Shown here piece after piece: positions 14,177-19,996 of a DNA stretch of 64,000 bases. This stretch comes from Verrucomicrobiota bacterium (GTDB lineage: Bacteria > Verrucomicrobiota > Verrucomicrobiia > Opitutales > Opitutaceae). A model generated the notes under the pieces. It saw only the letters and a program-made list of their open reading frames with translations, searched no databases and was not told the DNA's origin. The translations under genes were made by a program, and so were the position numbers. Positions within the stretch are counted from its first letter, which is position 1; each line of letters begins with the position of its first letter. The stretch covers positions 1-64,000 of the forward strand of contig JAPLTN010000010.1 in assembly GCA_026398135.1 (NCBI GenBank), in the 5' to 3' direction.

Positions 14177-15877
14177 TCAGGGCCAGCGTTGTAGGCGGCA
14201 GCCGCGGAAAACGAGGGCGGCGCCGATCACGGCGTGGGCGCCGAGCACGGCGAGGGCGGAGGTGGTGCCGGCCAGCCAGCCGGGGTCGAGGAGGGCGACG
14301 GCGTCGTAAAAGCGGGAATCGCGCATCGCGGTCAGGTAGCCCGACCAGCCCCAGAACGTGGCGATGAAAGGGCGGACGGACCAGACCAGGGCGGCGGGCA
14401 GGGCGAGGACCACGCCGGAAAGCGGGAGTTGAAAGCCCACCAGATAAATGGAGAGCAGGGAGGCGCGCTCGGGGGAGGTGAGCAGGGCGGAGATGCCGAG
14501 GCAGACGATGCTCATTGATGCGCCGGCGGCGGAGAGGATGGCGATTTGCGGGAGCCAGGCACCGGGGAAGGCGCAAAGGGTTTTGACGAAGATCGTCATC
14601 CATGCGCCTTGCGCCGCGCCGAGCAGGGCGACCCAGGTGAGTTTGGCGATGGAGTAGGCTGCGGGGCGTAGGCCGGCCATGCGTTCTTTCTCGAAGAGGG
14701 CGCGTTCGGAGGCGATTTCGCGGGCGCCGTTGTTGCTGCCCATCAGGCAGAGCAGGATGACTTGGAAAAGGATGAGGCCGGAGACAAGGGTGGCGGTGTC
14801 GGCCGCGTCTTTGCGGAAGGCGGCGCGGGCTTGCAGGGATTCGAGAATGCCGCCGGTGGGCTGGAGTTCGAGACCGCGGAGTTGGGGCAGGCCGCCGAGG
14901 GCGAAAATGACCACCAGGCAGGGGAAACCGAAGGTGATGGCGGCGGTGAGCGCCAAGGTGCCGCGATCCCGGGTGAAGAGCCGCCAGCGGCGGGCCAGCA
15001 GAGTGCGGATTTGGGAGCATAGGCCCGGCACAGGAATCGGGCCGGCCGCAGGGGAGGCGGGGGCGGGGTTGAGCGGACTGACGGGGGGGCGCAGGGCGAG
15101 CCAGTCGGCGGCGGAGCGCTCGGCCAGGCGGTCATAGAGGGTGAGGGCATCGGCGATGCCGAAGTGGGCGAGCAGGGCGGGATGGGAGCCTTGAAAGACT
15201 ACCGCGCCTTCGTAAACCACGGTGACGACGTCGAACTGGTCGAGTTTGGCGAGGTTGTGGATAACGCAGAGGACGGTGCGGGATTGCTCGGCGACGAGGC
15301 GGCGGAGGACGGCGAGGATCTGGTCTTCGCTGCGGGGGTCGAGGCCGCTGGTGACTTCGTCGCAGAGCAGGCAGGCGGGCTCGGTGGCGAGTTCGAGGGC
15401 GAGGCCGAGGCGGCGGAGCTGGCCGCCCGAGAGTTTTTCGACGAGGGTATCGGCGCGCTCGGTCAGACCCACGAGAGTGAGGAGGGCGGGCAGGCGGGCG
15501 GTGCGGGTGGCATGGTCGGGGGTTTTCCGATACAAGCGCAACGAGGTCTCAAGCGCCTCGGCCACGGTGAGTTTGCCGTGGGCGATGCTGAACTGGGGGG
15601 CGAAGGCGACTTCGCGCAGCAGGGCCTGGCGGTCGGTGACGGTGGCGCTGCGCAACAGGATTTGGCCGCGGGTGGGCAGGATGCCGAGCATGCCCTTGAG
15701 CAGGGTGGTTTTGCCGCAGCCGGAGGGGCCGATGAGGGCGTGGAGGCGGGCGGGGGCGAAGTCGGCGTCGGCGGAGCGCACGAGCGGGGCGGCACCGGGG
15801 CGGGGAAGGACGTCGAGCGAACGGCAGGCGAGCATCACCGGGGATGAAAACGGACGCGCCGCCTGGAGGCGAGACAT
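14177..15877 (-). CDS. ABCG-type half transporter (ATPase fused to membrane domain)
   Basis: A 566-residue fusion of an N-terminal ABC ATPase and a C-terminal ABC2-type membrane domain. The ATPase has Walker A GPSGCGKTT, signature LSGGQLRR, Walker B CLLCDEVTSGLD and the H-loop VIHN. The membrane domain starts near residue 290 (RWRLFTRDRGTLALTAAITFGFP) and has five or six spans. Such NBD-TMD half transporters dimerise and generally export lipids or hydrophobic compounds. A broken paralogue is at 18601-19996. A lipoprotein and a secreted repeat protein follow on the same strand and may be partners, though no direct evidence shows it. Confidence 0.88.
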   Translation of the reverse strand: MSRLQAARPFSSPVMLACRSLDVLPRPGAAPLVRSADADFAPARLHALIGPSGCGKTTLLKGMLGILPTRGQILLRSATVTDRQALLREVAFAPQFSIAHGKLTVAEALETSLRLYRKTPDHATRTARLPALLTLVGLTERADTLVEKLSGGQLRRLGLALELATEPACLLCDEVTSGLDPRSEDQILAVLRRLVAEQSRTVLCVIHNLAKLDQFDVVTVVYEGAVVFQGSHPALLAHFGIADALTLYDRLAERSAADWLALRPPVSPLNPAPASPAAGPIPVPGLCSQIRTLLARRWRLFTRDRGTLALTAAITFGFPCLVVIFALGGLPQLRGLELQPTGGILESLQARAAFRKDAADTATLVSGLILFQVILLCLMGSNNGAREIASERALFEKERMAGLRPAAYSIAKLTWVALLGAAQGAWMTIFVKTLCAFPGAWLPQIAILSAAGASMSIVCLGISALLTSPERASLLSIYLVGFQLPLSGVVLALPAALVWSVRPFIATFWGWSGYLTAMRDSRFYDAVALLDPGWLAGTTSALAVLGAHAVIGAALVFRGCRLQRWP

Positions 15878-15937: not shown

Positions 15938-16122
15938 TTAGAGCCTATCCGAATAACCGGTAAAGCGGCGCGTAGTACGCCGCGAGGGACGAGCAGAAAA
16001 ACGGGGTGGCCCGGCGTTGACCGTCGAGGCATGGGCCGCTGGCCCACCTCCTCGCCGGTCGCCTTGGGCGACCGCATTTTTCCACTCGTCGCCGCCTCAC
16101 CGGCTATCCGGATAGGCTCTTA
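15938..16122. mobile_element. MITE-like element with terminal inverted repeats and TTA duplication
   Basis: Imperfect 20-base terminal inverted repeats begin GAGCCTATCCGAATAACCGG (15941-15960) and end at 16119 with its near complement. TTA flanks both sides (15938-15940 and 16120-16122). That is a 3-base TNA-type duplication, as made by some IS5-group transposases. The 179-base interior has no transposase but contains stem-loops at 16032-16046 and 16057-16073. It is thus a non-autonomous element. The right TTA is also the TAA stop codon of the O-antigen-ligase-like gene, so insertion preserved that gene's end. Confidence 0.72.
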
Positions 16123-17415
16123 GGGGTTCTGGTTAAACCATGGCCAGGAAGGGATGAAGAGGTTGATGCCGCCGATGAGTTTAACATGAGCGGTGTCGGG
16201 GTGCTTGTCGCCCCAGTTGAACCAAGCCTCGCAAAGAAGGTCGCGGCACAGGCTGTCGCTGAGGGTTACGTGGACCTTGGTCGGGGCTTGGCGTTCGAGC
16301 CATGCAAGGGTTTCGGACGAAGCGGGGATGTTGAACAGGTGAACGCGTGACCGGGGCGGCAACTTGGTCGGCAGCCTGCCTGAGAGAATCCACAGCGCGC
16401 CGGCAGGCACATCGGCGGGGACGGCTGCACCGGGTTGAAGCACCAAGGCGCTCGCCTCTGAGGCGCGTAGATCGTGGCCCCATTTCCCGCCCAGGACTCC
16501 GGGGTTGGGGGCGTAGATGACGATTTGCGGCGGCGGATCGCCCCAGCGGATGGAACCGGACGAGGTGGAGAGCTGCGGGGAACTCAGATACCAGCCAAGA
16601 CTATGCAGGCTAATCAGGGAAAAAGCGGCTGCACCAACGCAGAGGCCAGCGGTGCGCCATGCGGGGAAATCACGGTTACGGATGCGCCAAAAGGTGACGG
16701 CTGCGAGTGTTGCGAGGGGTAGCGTCCAGACCTGCCAGACGTTGGCGGTGGTGCTAAAGATCGCTGCGACGAAGAAGGTCAGCCACACGGCGGCGGCGGT
16801 CGTGAGCAGGGGCGCGGCGCGGCGCGGCCAGACGAACCAAGCGAGCCCTGCCCATGCGAGGGCGTAGCTCAGGCGGGCGGCGAGGCCGTGCTCGGCAAGC
16901 CAATTGAGGTGAAAGTTAATGAGCGATAGGTAGCCGCGCCGATCCCCGATCTCCTGATACCATTGCGCGTAAAAATTGGAGGCGTTGCCGACGCCGACTC
17001 CGCTAGGGGCATCCCAAAGCATGGCGAGGCCGGCGCGCCAGAGGTCGCTTCGGGAGTCGTCGCCGTAGGTAAAGCGTTGCCAGACACCGTGCAAGGTGCC
17101 GTAAACGGCCAAAGCGAGAAGGGCTACGCATCCCGTGATGAGCAGAGCGCGGGGGATGCGCGGGCGGTGGATGAGGCCGACAAGACAGATACCGCAGGCG
17201 GCGGCGATGATTCCTCCACGTGATTTGGTGGCGATAAGCAGAACGGAGAGTGCCAGACCGAGAATCAGGCCAATCCAATGCCAGCGACGGCGGGCTTGGA
17301 GGAAACACCATGCGCAGGAAACGACGGCGCAGGCGAGAATGGCGGCGCTGCGGTTGCTGCTGGCGGGGCCGAGAACGAGGAAGTCGAAGCGGTTGCCGAA
17401 GAGGAAATCTAGCAT
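16120..17415 (-). CDS. O-antigen ligase-like polytopic membrane protein
   Basis: A 431-residue membrane protein with about eight hydrophobic spans followed by a soluble C-terminal domain of about 130 residues. The ATKSRGGIIAAA motif and the loop RSDLWRAGLAMLWDAPSGVGVGNASNFY match the Wzy_C/WaaL pattern, in which a periplasmic loop acts in glycan ligation or polymerisation. Only about two spans precede the SRGG motif, fewer than in typical ligases, so the N-terminus may be truncated or mis-set; ATG 17415 is the best available start. Its stop lies inside a transposon target duplication. It is divergent from a toxin-antitoxin pair. Substrate unknown. Confidence 0.65.
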   Translation of the reverse strand: MLDFLFGNRFDFLVLGPASSNRSAAILACAVVSCAWCFLQARRRWHWIGLILGLALSVLLIATKSRGGIIAAACGICLVGLIHRPRIPRALLITGCVALLALAVYGTLHGVWQRFTYGDDSRSDLWRAGLAMLWDAPSGVGVGNASNFYAQWYQEIGDRRGYLSLINFHLNWLAEHGLAARLSYALAWAGLAWFVWPRRAAPLLTTAAAVWLTFFVAAIFSTTANVWQVWTLPLATLAAVTFWRIRNRDFPAWRTAGLCVGAAAFSLISLHSLGWYLSSPQLSTSSGSIRWGDPPPQIVIYAPNPGVLGGKWGHDLRASEASALVLQPGAAVPADVPAGALWILSGRLPTKLPPRSRVHLFNIPASSETLAWLERQAPTKVHVTLSDSLCRDLLCEAWFNWGDKHPDTAHVKLIGGINLFIPSWPWFNQNP

Positions 17416-17478
17416 GGTCGGTCTGATTTTTCGGGCGCGCAGATTGACAATACCAACCCTAAGTGACACTGTGACACC

Positions 17479-17730
17479 ATGCCTGCCACCCTCACAATCA
17501 AACAACTCCATGCCGCCACCGGGCGGCTGGTGCGCACGGCTGCACGCTCGCGCACCCCCACGGTGATTACCGACCGAGGCCAACCGGTGGCCCTGCTCAG
17601 TTCGCCTGCCAGCTTGCCCCCTCCTGCCCGCCGCTCACGCCAAATCCTACCCGAATACGCGGCCCTTATGCGCCAGTCTCCCAATGGTTCGCTGAGTGAC
17701 GATATTGATTCGGTGCGCGGCGACCGATGA
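17479..17730 (+). CDS. Type II antitoxin, Phd/YefM family
   Basis: An 83-residue protein with the Phd/YefM-type N-terminal fold: TIKQLHAATGRLVRTAARSRTPTVITDRGQPVALLSS, in which the ITDRGQPVALL strand is typical. The C-terminal tail (SLSDDIDSVRGDR) is disordered and acidic, as expected for the part that wraps around the toxin. Its stop overlaps the toxin start (ATGA at 17727-17730). Phd-type antitoxins usually autorepress their operon; a palindrome was not identified upstream by eye. Confidence 0.82.
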   Translation: MPATLTIKQLHAATGRLVRTAARSRTPTVITDRGQPVALLSSPASLPPPARRSRQILPEYAALMRQSPNGSLSDDIDSVRGDR

Positions 17731-18164
17731 TTTTTTGCGACACCTCTTACGCGGCCAAGCTTTACGTGCCCGAGGCGGATTCCGCCGTCGTGCGCGAACA
17801 TCTTGAGGGCTACACGGGAGAGGTCTGCTTGTCGGAACTGGCGCGTGCCGAGTTGCTGGCGGTTTTCCATCGGCGGCTGCGGGAAGGCCGGTGGAGTTTG
17901 GCGGAGTTTTCCGCCGCCGCCCGGCAGTTTCAGCAGGACGACCTGTCGGGTTTCTGGACTTGGCTGCCCTTGGATTCCGTCATCACGCAGGCGACCGCCC
18001 AGCTTTATCTTACCCTGCCGCCCGGCGTATTTCTGCGCACAGGGGATGGCCTGCACCTGGTCACCGCCCGCCATCATGGATTTACGGAGATTTATACCTG
18101 CGACAGACATCAGACACTCGCGGCTCCCGCCTTGGGGTTGAGGGCACGCAACCAGCCCGTGTAG
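17727..18164 (+). CDS. vapC: PIN-domain toxin, VapC type
   Basis: A 145-residue PIN-domain protein. Acidic active-site residues are visible: D5 in IFCDTSYAAKLY, E in LSELARAELLA, D in RTGDGLHLVTA and D in YTCDRHQ, matching VapC ribonucleases that cut tRNA or rRNA. It is coupled to the upstream antitoxin by an ATGA overlap. The last codon and the TAG stop (18162-18164) lie inside a long inverted repeat, so the natural C-terminus could have been altered by that repeat. Confidence 0.85.
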   Translation: MIFCDTSYAAKLYVPEADSAVVREHLEGYTGEVCLSELARAELLAVFHRRLREGRWSLAEFSAAARQFQQDDLSGFWTWLPLDSVITQATAQLYLTLPPGVFLRTGDGLHLVTARHHGFTEIYTCDRHQTLAAPALGLRARNQPV

Positions 18165-18264: not shown

Positions 18265-18600
18265 TCACGGGTGATGCAGTTTTAGCCACAGATCGGCGAC
18301 TTCCGGGGTGGGCAACCAAGCGGAGAGTGCGGGATTCAGAAGTCGCTCATCTTCGGTGGTGGGCTGCTTGGTTTCGGCATCGAGCCACTGGGCTTGGTCG
18401 AATTTGCCATCGAGCATGGAAGCAAAATAGGCGCGGACGGACTCCTCGAATCGTTTATGGCGAATGTGCCCAACGTTGCCGATGCTTACCCAAGTCCAGC
18501 GGGCGTCTTTACGGCGGCCTTGTTGAAAACAAGCGAAGGAAGGGCCGTAGCGCTCGGCATCGAATTCTCCGCAGGCTACGATGCCGGGCGAAGTGGTTAC
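18265..18600 (-). pseudogene. 3' fragment of an unidentified gene (possibly hydrolase-like)
   Basis: About 111 codons read from the minus strand (SPGIVACGEFDAERYGPSF to LWLKLHHP) and end in a stop at 18265. They have normal coding character but no convincing start: the frame simply begins at the junction with the ABC pseudogene at 18600/18601. The segment WTWVSIGNVGHIRHKRFEESVRAYFA might be the end of an alpha/beta-hydrolase-type enzyme with a catalytic histidine, but I am not sure. It is a 5'-truncated remnant joined head-to-head to another 5'-truncated gene. Confidence 0.55.
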
Positions 18601-19996
18601 GCGCTGGATTTGTTGGTGGCGGAGAGGGCGGCGCGGGAAGCGCGGATGGCGACGATCCTGGAAATCGTCGGGCTGGGGGCGGCGCGGCACACGCGGGTGG
18701 AAAACCTGTCGGGGGGGGCAGCTTCGGCGGCTGGGACTTGGTTTGGAGTTGGTGAACGATCCTGACTGGCTGGTTTGCGACGAAGTAACCTCGGGCCTCG
18801 ATCCGCGTTCGGAAGATCAGATTTTGGAGGTGCTGCGCACGCTGGCGAGAGAGCGGGGGAAATCGTTCATCTGCATCATCCACAATCTGGCAAAGCTGCG
18901 CGGCTTTGACCGGATAACGGTGCTGGGACAAGGCGTGCTTTTGTTTCAGGGCAGCTACCCGGAGTTCCTGGCGCATTTTAAGATCGAAGATCCGCTGCAC
19001 CTTTACGAGCGGCTGAATGAACAGCCGGTGGAGGCGTGGCAGGCGGAGTGGCATGGGGCGCAACAGGGCAAAGAGCCAGGAGCTGGTGGCCGGGAGCCAG
19101 AACAGAATGCAGACGAAAGTCCGTTGCCACGCTCTGCGCCGGGCGCTGTGGCGCAGGTCTGGACGCTGCTGCGGCGACGCTGGCGGCTGTTTTGGCGGGA
19201 CCGGGGCAACCTGGTATCGATGGGGGGAATCACTTTCGGATTCCCGGTGCTGGTGGCGATCTTCGCGCTTGGCGGGTTACCGCAAATCGGTGCGATGGCC
19301 TTGGATTCGACGGCGGGTTTTTTGGAAACCCTGCAACAGAGCATGCGGCATCAACGCGAAGCCACGCAGGCGGCAAACTTGGTCGTAGGGTTGGTGTTGT
19401 TTCAGGTTATTCTGCTCGGGCTGACCGGCGCGAACAACGGAGCGCGCGAAATCGCCGCCGAACGCATGGTATTTGAGAAGGAGCGAATGAATGGGCTGAG
19501 GCCGTTGGCCTATGCGTTGTCGAAGGTGCTCTTTTTCACGGGGCTGGCCGGGGCGCAAGGCGTGTGGATGGCTGTCTTCGTTAAATTGGTGTGCCGGTTT
19601 CCGGGACATTGGTGGTCACAGGTGGCGACGCTCGGGCTATCTTGCGTGGCGATGACACTGGTGGCGCTGGGAATCTCGGCGACGGCACGTACGGCGGAGC
19701 GGGCGTCGTTTTCCTCGGTGTTTTTGGTTGGGCTGCAATTGCCCTTGTCCGGCGTGGTGCTGGCGTTGCCGGGCTATCTGCTGTGGTTCTGCCGACCTTT
19801 TGTGAACGCGTTTTGGGCGTGGGCGGGCTATTTTAACGCAATGACGAGTTCGCGGCTTTATGACGCTTTTCGACTTAACAACGAACGCTGGTTGCCGACG
19901 GCTGAGCTATCGCTGGCGGTGCTCGCGCTGCAATCGCTGGCAGGTGTGGGGTTGATTATCTACGGACGCAGGCGGCTACGATGGGGCGAAGGTTGA
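18601..19996 (+). pseudogene. 5'-truncated, frameshifted paralogue of the ABCG exporter
   Basis: Homology to the exporter at 14177-15877 starts at 18601 (ALDLLVAERAAREA matching ALETSLRLYRKTPDH), so the first part of the ATPase including Walker A is missing. The signature LSGG is followed by a frameshift at a run of eight G (18711-18718); removing one G restores LSGGQLRRLGLGLEL. Past it, Walker B WLVCDEVTSGLDPRSED, IIHNL and the whole membrane domain through RRLRWGEG are intact to the TGA at 19996. It is a dead gene unless it contributes the membrane domain only. Opposite strand to its parent. Confidence 0.85.

Follow-up and report, generated by a model that had tools for sequence, protein, structure and literature searches.

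The window is a stretch of 64,000 nucleotides from a Verrucomicrobiota bacterium of the Opitutaceae, and the part considered here lies between an O-antigen-ligase-like gene and an ABC transporter gene, both of which are encoded on the minus strand. Positions 15938-16122, between these two genes, are a MITE together with its duplicated target. The genes and features at this locus are as follows:

14177-15877, minus strand: ABC transporter gene with an ATPase domain, the next gene in the same direction, downstream of the element
15938-15940, no strand: left copy of the target duplication, TTA (TAA/TTA duplications occur in 56 of 101 related elements)
15941-16119, no strand: MITE body, 179 bp (a 94% copy in genome G116 and a 93% copy in genome G215)
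15941-15958, plus strand: left tip GAGCCTATCCGAATAACC, of which bases 1-17 recur unchanged at both ends of the insertion sequence (IS) in L110
15965-15983, plus strand: small hairpin between the left tip and the main stem, read from the sequence and present in this arm only
15990-16091, plus strand: conserved hairpin core (model R1, E 2.8e-24)
16102-16119, minus strand: right tip GAGCCTATCCGGATAGCC, inverted, from the comparison of the arms
16120-16122, no strand: right copy of the duplication, TTA, which is the TAA stop of the minus-strand gene
16120-17583, minus strand: O-antigen-ligase-like gene (Wzy_C); its stop codon is the target that was duplicated, and the listed TTG start is uncertain

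The ABC transporter gene at 14177-15877 (minus strand) and a second one at 18581-19996 (plus strand) share 53% identity over 424 amino acids, and the two flank the ligase and toxin-antitoxin genes in opposite orientations. At 17479-18164 (plus strand), an antitoxin-like gene (Phd/YefM, 22 bits, under the cut-off) is followed by a PIN-domain gene (48 bits). These two probably form a type II toxin-antitoxin pair, and they overlap the called ligase ORF at its 5' end.

Read from the sequence, positions 15938-16122 are laid out as TTA, 179 bp and TTA, in agreement with an earlier note on this DNA, which had described a MITE-like element with TIRs and a TTA duplication. Each TIR arm (15940-15970 and 16090-16120) spans 31 nt, with 87% complementarity between the two; the best 31-mer inverted repeat matches at 27 of 31 positions, and 15 dinucleotide shuffles of this region gave 22 at most. 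The whole element is a single hairpin, or one long palindrome (-132.3 kcal/mol as minus-strand RNA, z -13). The asymmetry between the arms that is seen at the small hairpin is also visible in alignment A2, which holds 26 of the 28 full elements listed (L027 and L030 omitted). A transposase gene is absent from the element, for which 179 bp is too short, and the ORFs listed inside it are short mechanical frames only.

The ORF at 16120-17583 (minus strand) has the stop codon TAA, which reads TTA on the plus strand and is the right copy of the duplication. The product of this ORF matches Pfam Wzy_C with 45.2 bits versus a cut-off of 31.7. The identification of this stop codon as the duplicated target was correct. 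Because TAA/TTA can be read as a stop codon on one of the strands, the stop on the gene side is complete and the protein is unchanged. If the element is removed together with one TTA, the stop stays as it is, and the earlier argument that the reading frame is preserved by such a duplication therefore proves right by inspection.

A search of 252 genomes of the family gave matches to the element in 32 of them. The full-length copies in G116 (94%) and in G215 (93%), the latter from a different genus, have flanks that differ from those in the window, and a comparison of the flanks of the three copies gave a single 36-bp match. The flanking 3-mers (left/right) are TAA/TAA in G116 and TAA/TTA in G215. 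Three one-ended copies (L017, L045, and L046) were found in G119. Further copies with TNA flanks had been predicted, and copies flanked by TAA/TTA were indeed recovered. The suggested genome-wide search for the TIRs was productive in relatives, but within the window's own genome a search with the exact tip found no second GAGCC-tipped element, full GAGCC-tipped copies being present only in other genomes. The exact tip GAGCCTATCCG occurs three times in this genome, at both ends of the element and once within a Der-like (GTPase-like) ORF; the third match was rejected as a second element in view of that location. A plasmid collection searched with the element gave no match. In the other 14 genomes of the genus, the ligase gene was not found beyond one short weak match, and a search with the joined flanks of L016 (the G215 copy) found no empty orthologous site.

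The tip GAGCCTATCCGRATAAC was searched in the genome collection, and it is present in at least 120 stretches from Chloroflexota, Planctomycetota, Opitutaceae, and others. Among the matches listed, most tip pairs delimit MITEs with lengths of 51 to 272 bp and three delimit full IS, namely L110 (5773-6682, 910 bp), L210 (846-1754, 909 bp), and L213 (2-912, 911 bp). These IS with window-type ends, 909-911 bp long and carrying an IS5-type transposase in two frames, are found in Chloroflexota, and in each of the three the two frames overlap at an A-run. The frames of L110 contain PF13340, DDE_Tnp_1_2, and DDE_Tnp_1. Matches to the NCBIfam IS5 model NF033580 were obtained with both L110 and L213; the second frame of L110 scores above the cut-off, and the two first-frame proteins (L110 and L213) score just below it. 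The duplication of L210 is TAA/TAA. Several long tip "pairs" were rejected as IS, as no more than 11-13 of 16 bases matched at their ends and they contained unrelated frames. On an Anaerolineae chromosome (record CP059258.1, L106-L177), we also observed many elements of 66-67 bp which consist of little beyond two GAGCC tips.

Within the window's own family, a relative of the transposase was detected at E 1e-10 in 8 of 252 genomes, none of which is the own genome or belongs to the genus. The L110 transposase gave no match at E 1e-10 in the own genome (G000), whose only strong PF13340 gene has other ends. An 880-bp element in G082 (L336) has the ends GAGCCTATCCGGCTAAT and GCACCTATCCGGCTAAT, near the G119 tips, and broken frames; it is a decayed relative within the window's own family. 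A helper in the same genome is not a strict requirement for a MITE. The earlier note had placed the helper transposase elsewhere and had predicted an IS5-type transposase with matching ends, and both expectations agree with what was found.

Identical flanking 3-mers were observed, across several phyla, in 60 of the 101 paired elements with both flanks (29 TAA, 27 TTA, 1 TGA, 2 TAC, and 1 TAT), a share that is a lower bound because the rejected long pairs were kept within the 101. The 41 elements without identical 3-mers include some of these false pairs. IS1031 makes a TNA duplication, and a TNA-type 3-base duplication of the IS5 kind had been proposed for the element in the window. The 3-bp length and the link to IS5 hold, but the target is mainly TWA, not any TNA. 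A purine follows TAA in 48 of 56 cases, the site in the window being among the exceptions. In addition, TAA on the left with TTA on the right occurs in seven elements versus none with TTA/TAA (P-value = 0.016), an asymmetry which is unpredicted by a plain 3-bp duplication.

Based on crude ORF-based gene calls, the insertion site coincides exactly with a predicted stop in 12 of 57 cases, versus 73 of 4136 control TWA sites (Fisher P-value = 7e-10), and 45 of the 57 are not at a predicted stop. This set comprises insertions with identical TAA, TTA, TGA, or TCA flanks only, the element in the window included; elements longer than 480 bp except the three IS, as well as loci with fewer than 200 bases on both sides, were left out, and L016 (TAA/TTA) and the one-ended L017, L045, and L046 lie outside it. 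TA-tipped core elements are at a stop in 6 of 30 cases versus 13 of 245 (P-value = 0.01, with the same crude gene calls). Six GAGCC-tipped core insertions were inspected singly, and four of them are at the TAA of a frame of at least 188 codons: the window, L016, L017 (ffh, TIGR00959), and L045 (hisC, TIGR01141). The genes ffh and hisC, which end at TAA adjoining two further copies, are the two clear cases. L015 is not at such a stop (15-codon frame), and the frame at L046, with 175 codons, is outside the four.

The odds fall somewhat short of even that this position reflects only chance and counter-selection within genes, TWA being the sole target preference. In GC-rich genomes, TWA seldom occurs within genes and is common at stops, and most insertions are elsewhere, both of which would be expected in that case. 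However, when sites inside predicted genes are removed, the excess persists under the same crude gene calls (12 of 37 at a stop versus 73 of 900, P-value = 4e-5). The measured enrichment at stop codons is moderate. More generally, the target of TWA-duplicating transposons is a stop codon on one strand, which gives them a built-in harmless target in GC-rich genomes, and such a harmless target can be counted across genomes.

The interior of the element had been described as holding only hairpins. It does fold as a single hairpin, but that description overlooked a conserved core which is common to MITEs with other ends. A DNA search of the own genome returned 11 rows, which are the element, its reverse strand, and nine other places that match mainly in the middle and whose ends differ from those in the window. 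Using model R1 (48 cores), we found the core of approximately 100 nt 24 times in the own genome and in 15 of 15 genomes of the genus, with up to 58 copies in G119. Under a stricter filter, by which weak copies are missed, the core was detected in 12 of 203 genomes at the level of the order and in 10 of 288 genomes of a phylum sample, all of them within the window's order. In other families of the order, the stems are replaced, and GCGTTG, the CAY/RCCTCC bulges, and CGCCTTG are kept in most copies read. Some elements contain a second, inverted core-like hairpin. Core elements of these other families (L287-L306 and L324-L326) have right ends of still other kinds (...GGTAT followed by TNA, or the ATACCACTTC type), and upstream lies a second hairpin module that in most cases ends in AACGC. 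In the own genome, a repeat with CTCGGAAATTGGCC or a near variant was seen by eye beside core elements (L002, L006, L007, and L010). An idea that the minus strand of the core offers a start codon and Shine-Dalgarno sequence was dropped on reading the copies, as RTG is not kept in all of them.

Across 82 core copies, in an alignment that was fitted to the model and hence favours structure, 93.0% of cells are paired versus 74.3% after shuffling, 24 of 30 pairs show changes on both sides, and the number of doubly changed cells is 457 versus 121.6 in shuffled alignments (sd 9.6). This covariation is lost when the partners are slid by 1-3 columns. A MAFFT alignment of 48 cores (A1; 48 of the 51 core rows listed, with L036, L045, and L046 omitted) has changes on both sides in 22 of 30 pairs; a further alignment, A4, was built from 80 loci with E-values of at most 3e-11. 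In the variable helices, 45 mismatches are G-U, 67 are A-C, and 71 are of other kinds. An excess of wobble pairs is therefore absent, which fits DNA pairing or hairpin-templated repair better than RNA. It is possible, though we lean against it, that the compensatory changes arose from hairpin-templated correction during replication (quasi-palindrome repair), with no functional selection. Such repair would account for the double changes, the missing G-U preference, and the symmetric change of the stems, and the whole element is one long palindrome. On the other hand, it leaves unexplained the unpaired or bulged motifs (GCGTTG, CAY/RCCTCC, and CGCCTTG), which are kept across families despite the turnover of the stems.

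Most cores have GG... tips (GGGYGTGT...) and are flanked by TA at either end, the window's class being GAGCC with TWA; elements were kept in the TA-tipped set only if TA was present on both sides, so the TA flanks are no independent count in that set. Among the IS5-type elements of the family, those with GGGCGTG ends and those with GAG ends belong to different transposase clades (support 87/97 and 98/95, respectively), and another set of GAG-ended IS is placed elsewhere in the tree. In the core tree, the cores from the window, G116, and G215 are grouped (99.9/88). The smallest group that adds L017 has 12 members (support only 91.2/76), eight of which are not GAGCC-tipped, and TA-type right ends are seen in several of these eight; the order of tip changes is not resolved by this tree of 100-nt cores. 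GAGCC tips were also found around unrelated interiors in G140, G046, Anaerolineae, Planctomycetota, and other Opitutaceae. In two groups of GAGCC-tipped MITEs, L070-L091 (G140) and L068-L087 (G046), the interiors are other palindromes, and G140 has about 23 GAGCC-tipped copies by tip count.

It appears doubtful that no tips were swapped and that a single MITE lineage has ends which diverged slowly along with the transposases. The tips do have a common skeleton (GRGCSTRT...AATAAACC), and each tip class has a matching IS class. However, the same GAGCC tips on unrelated interiors (Anaerolineae, Planctomycetota, and other Opitutaceae) and the change of flanks from TA to TWA favour the acquisition of ready-made tips. 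Judging from these sequences, tip exchange would be the simplest reading, and the conserved core may have switched helpers.

That the core is instead a structured RNA (attenuator, mRNA stabiliser, or small RNA), with selection on the transcript and mobility secondary, is improbable: although the RNA fold is very stable, covariation is strong, three G-U pairs are conserved mid-core on the core strand (in 47, 78, and 80 of 82 copies), and MITE transcripts with regulatory hairpins are on record in the available part of PMC10969869, an RNA should give an excess of G-U on its strand, and no Rfam family came near its gathering score, the only matches being microRNA models far below gathering, as for any long hairpin, which were rejected as evidence of an RNA gene.

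With a probability of roughly 0.9, the element in the window is a non-autonomous IS5-type MITE which was inserted in trans at a TWA and whose core persists on the ends of successive IS5-type helpers. An IS5-type transposase, absent from the own genome today as far as found and perhaps lost from it, would have acted in trans and recognized the GAGCCTATCCGRATAACC tips. The TWA target would have been cut with a 3-base stagger and the element pasted in, after which gap filling would have duplicated the TTA. The core, which is present with at least two tip classes (GAG.../TWA and GG.../TA), would most likely have persisted by taking up the ends of one helper after another, and it probably acts as DNA.

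A bolder proposal, which we consider unlikely, is that the hairpin of approximately 100 nt, maintained through compensatory changes in several families of the order, is a parasite of parasites at the DNA level, whose tips changed to fit the available IS5-type transposase and which prefers stop codons via TWA/YTAR. If this were true, the hairpin would do something in its own right, such as serve as a folded single-strand signal to the machinery of transposition or replication, and insertions at stop codons would be harmless. A core that outlives changes of transposase ends would also offer a handle on whether the interiors of MITEs are passive filler or selected structures. In the open-licence literature, we found no publication that describes this element or reports exchanged ends around a shared core; new here are the conserved hairpin core common to several tip classes and the measured enrichment at stop codons.

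Tourist is the name of an element type. The Tourist-type PIF/Harbinger elements of eukaryotes have the TWA duplication in common with the window-type elements, and bacterial IS5 has been placed in the same transposase tree (PMC4482050, available part). PIF/Harbinger belongs to a different transposase clade, however, and the likeness is one of description, drawn without a sequence comparison.

Among bacterial repeats, GTAG REPs supply stop codons to adjoining genes and are reportedly enriched in Opitutus terrae, but according to the accessible text of PMC3733652 they are 20-40 bp long, depend on tyrosine (HUH) transposases, and have no TIR with duplication. The stop in the window comes from a duplicated target, and both size and duplication argue against membership in this group. 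RUP, Correia/NEMIS, ERIC, Chunjie, and QMITE2 are short and non-coding, with TIRs and stable hairpins, like the element in the window. Such bacterial MITEs use a helper in trans, as RUP does with IS630-Spn1; the available portions of these sources describe no core common to different end classes (PMC10969869, PMC2229807, and PMC3733652).

The matching IS resemble the IS427 group of the IS5 family, which shares with them the size class, short TIRs, PF13340 and DDE domains, and two overlapping transposase frames with a slippage run, as seen in L110, L210, and L213. In the IS5 table of PMC3281130, as far as it was available, the members of this group are 832-865 bp long and mostly have 2-bp duplications, whereas IS that carry the window's tips measure 909-911 bp and the GAGCC-tipped elements duplicate 3 bp (TWA).
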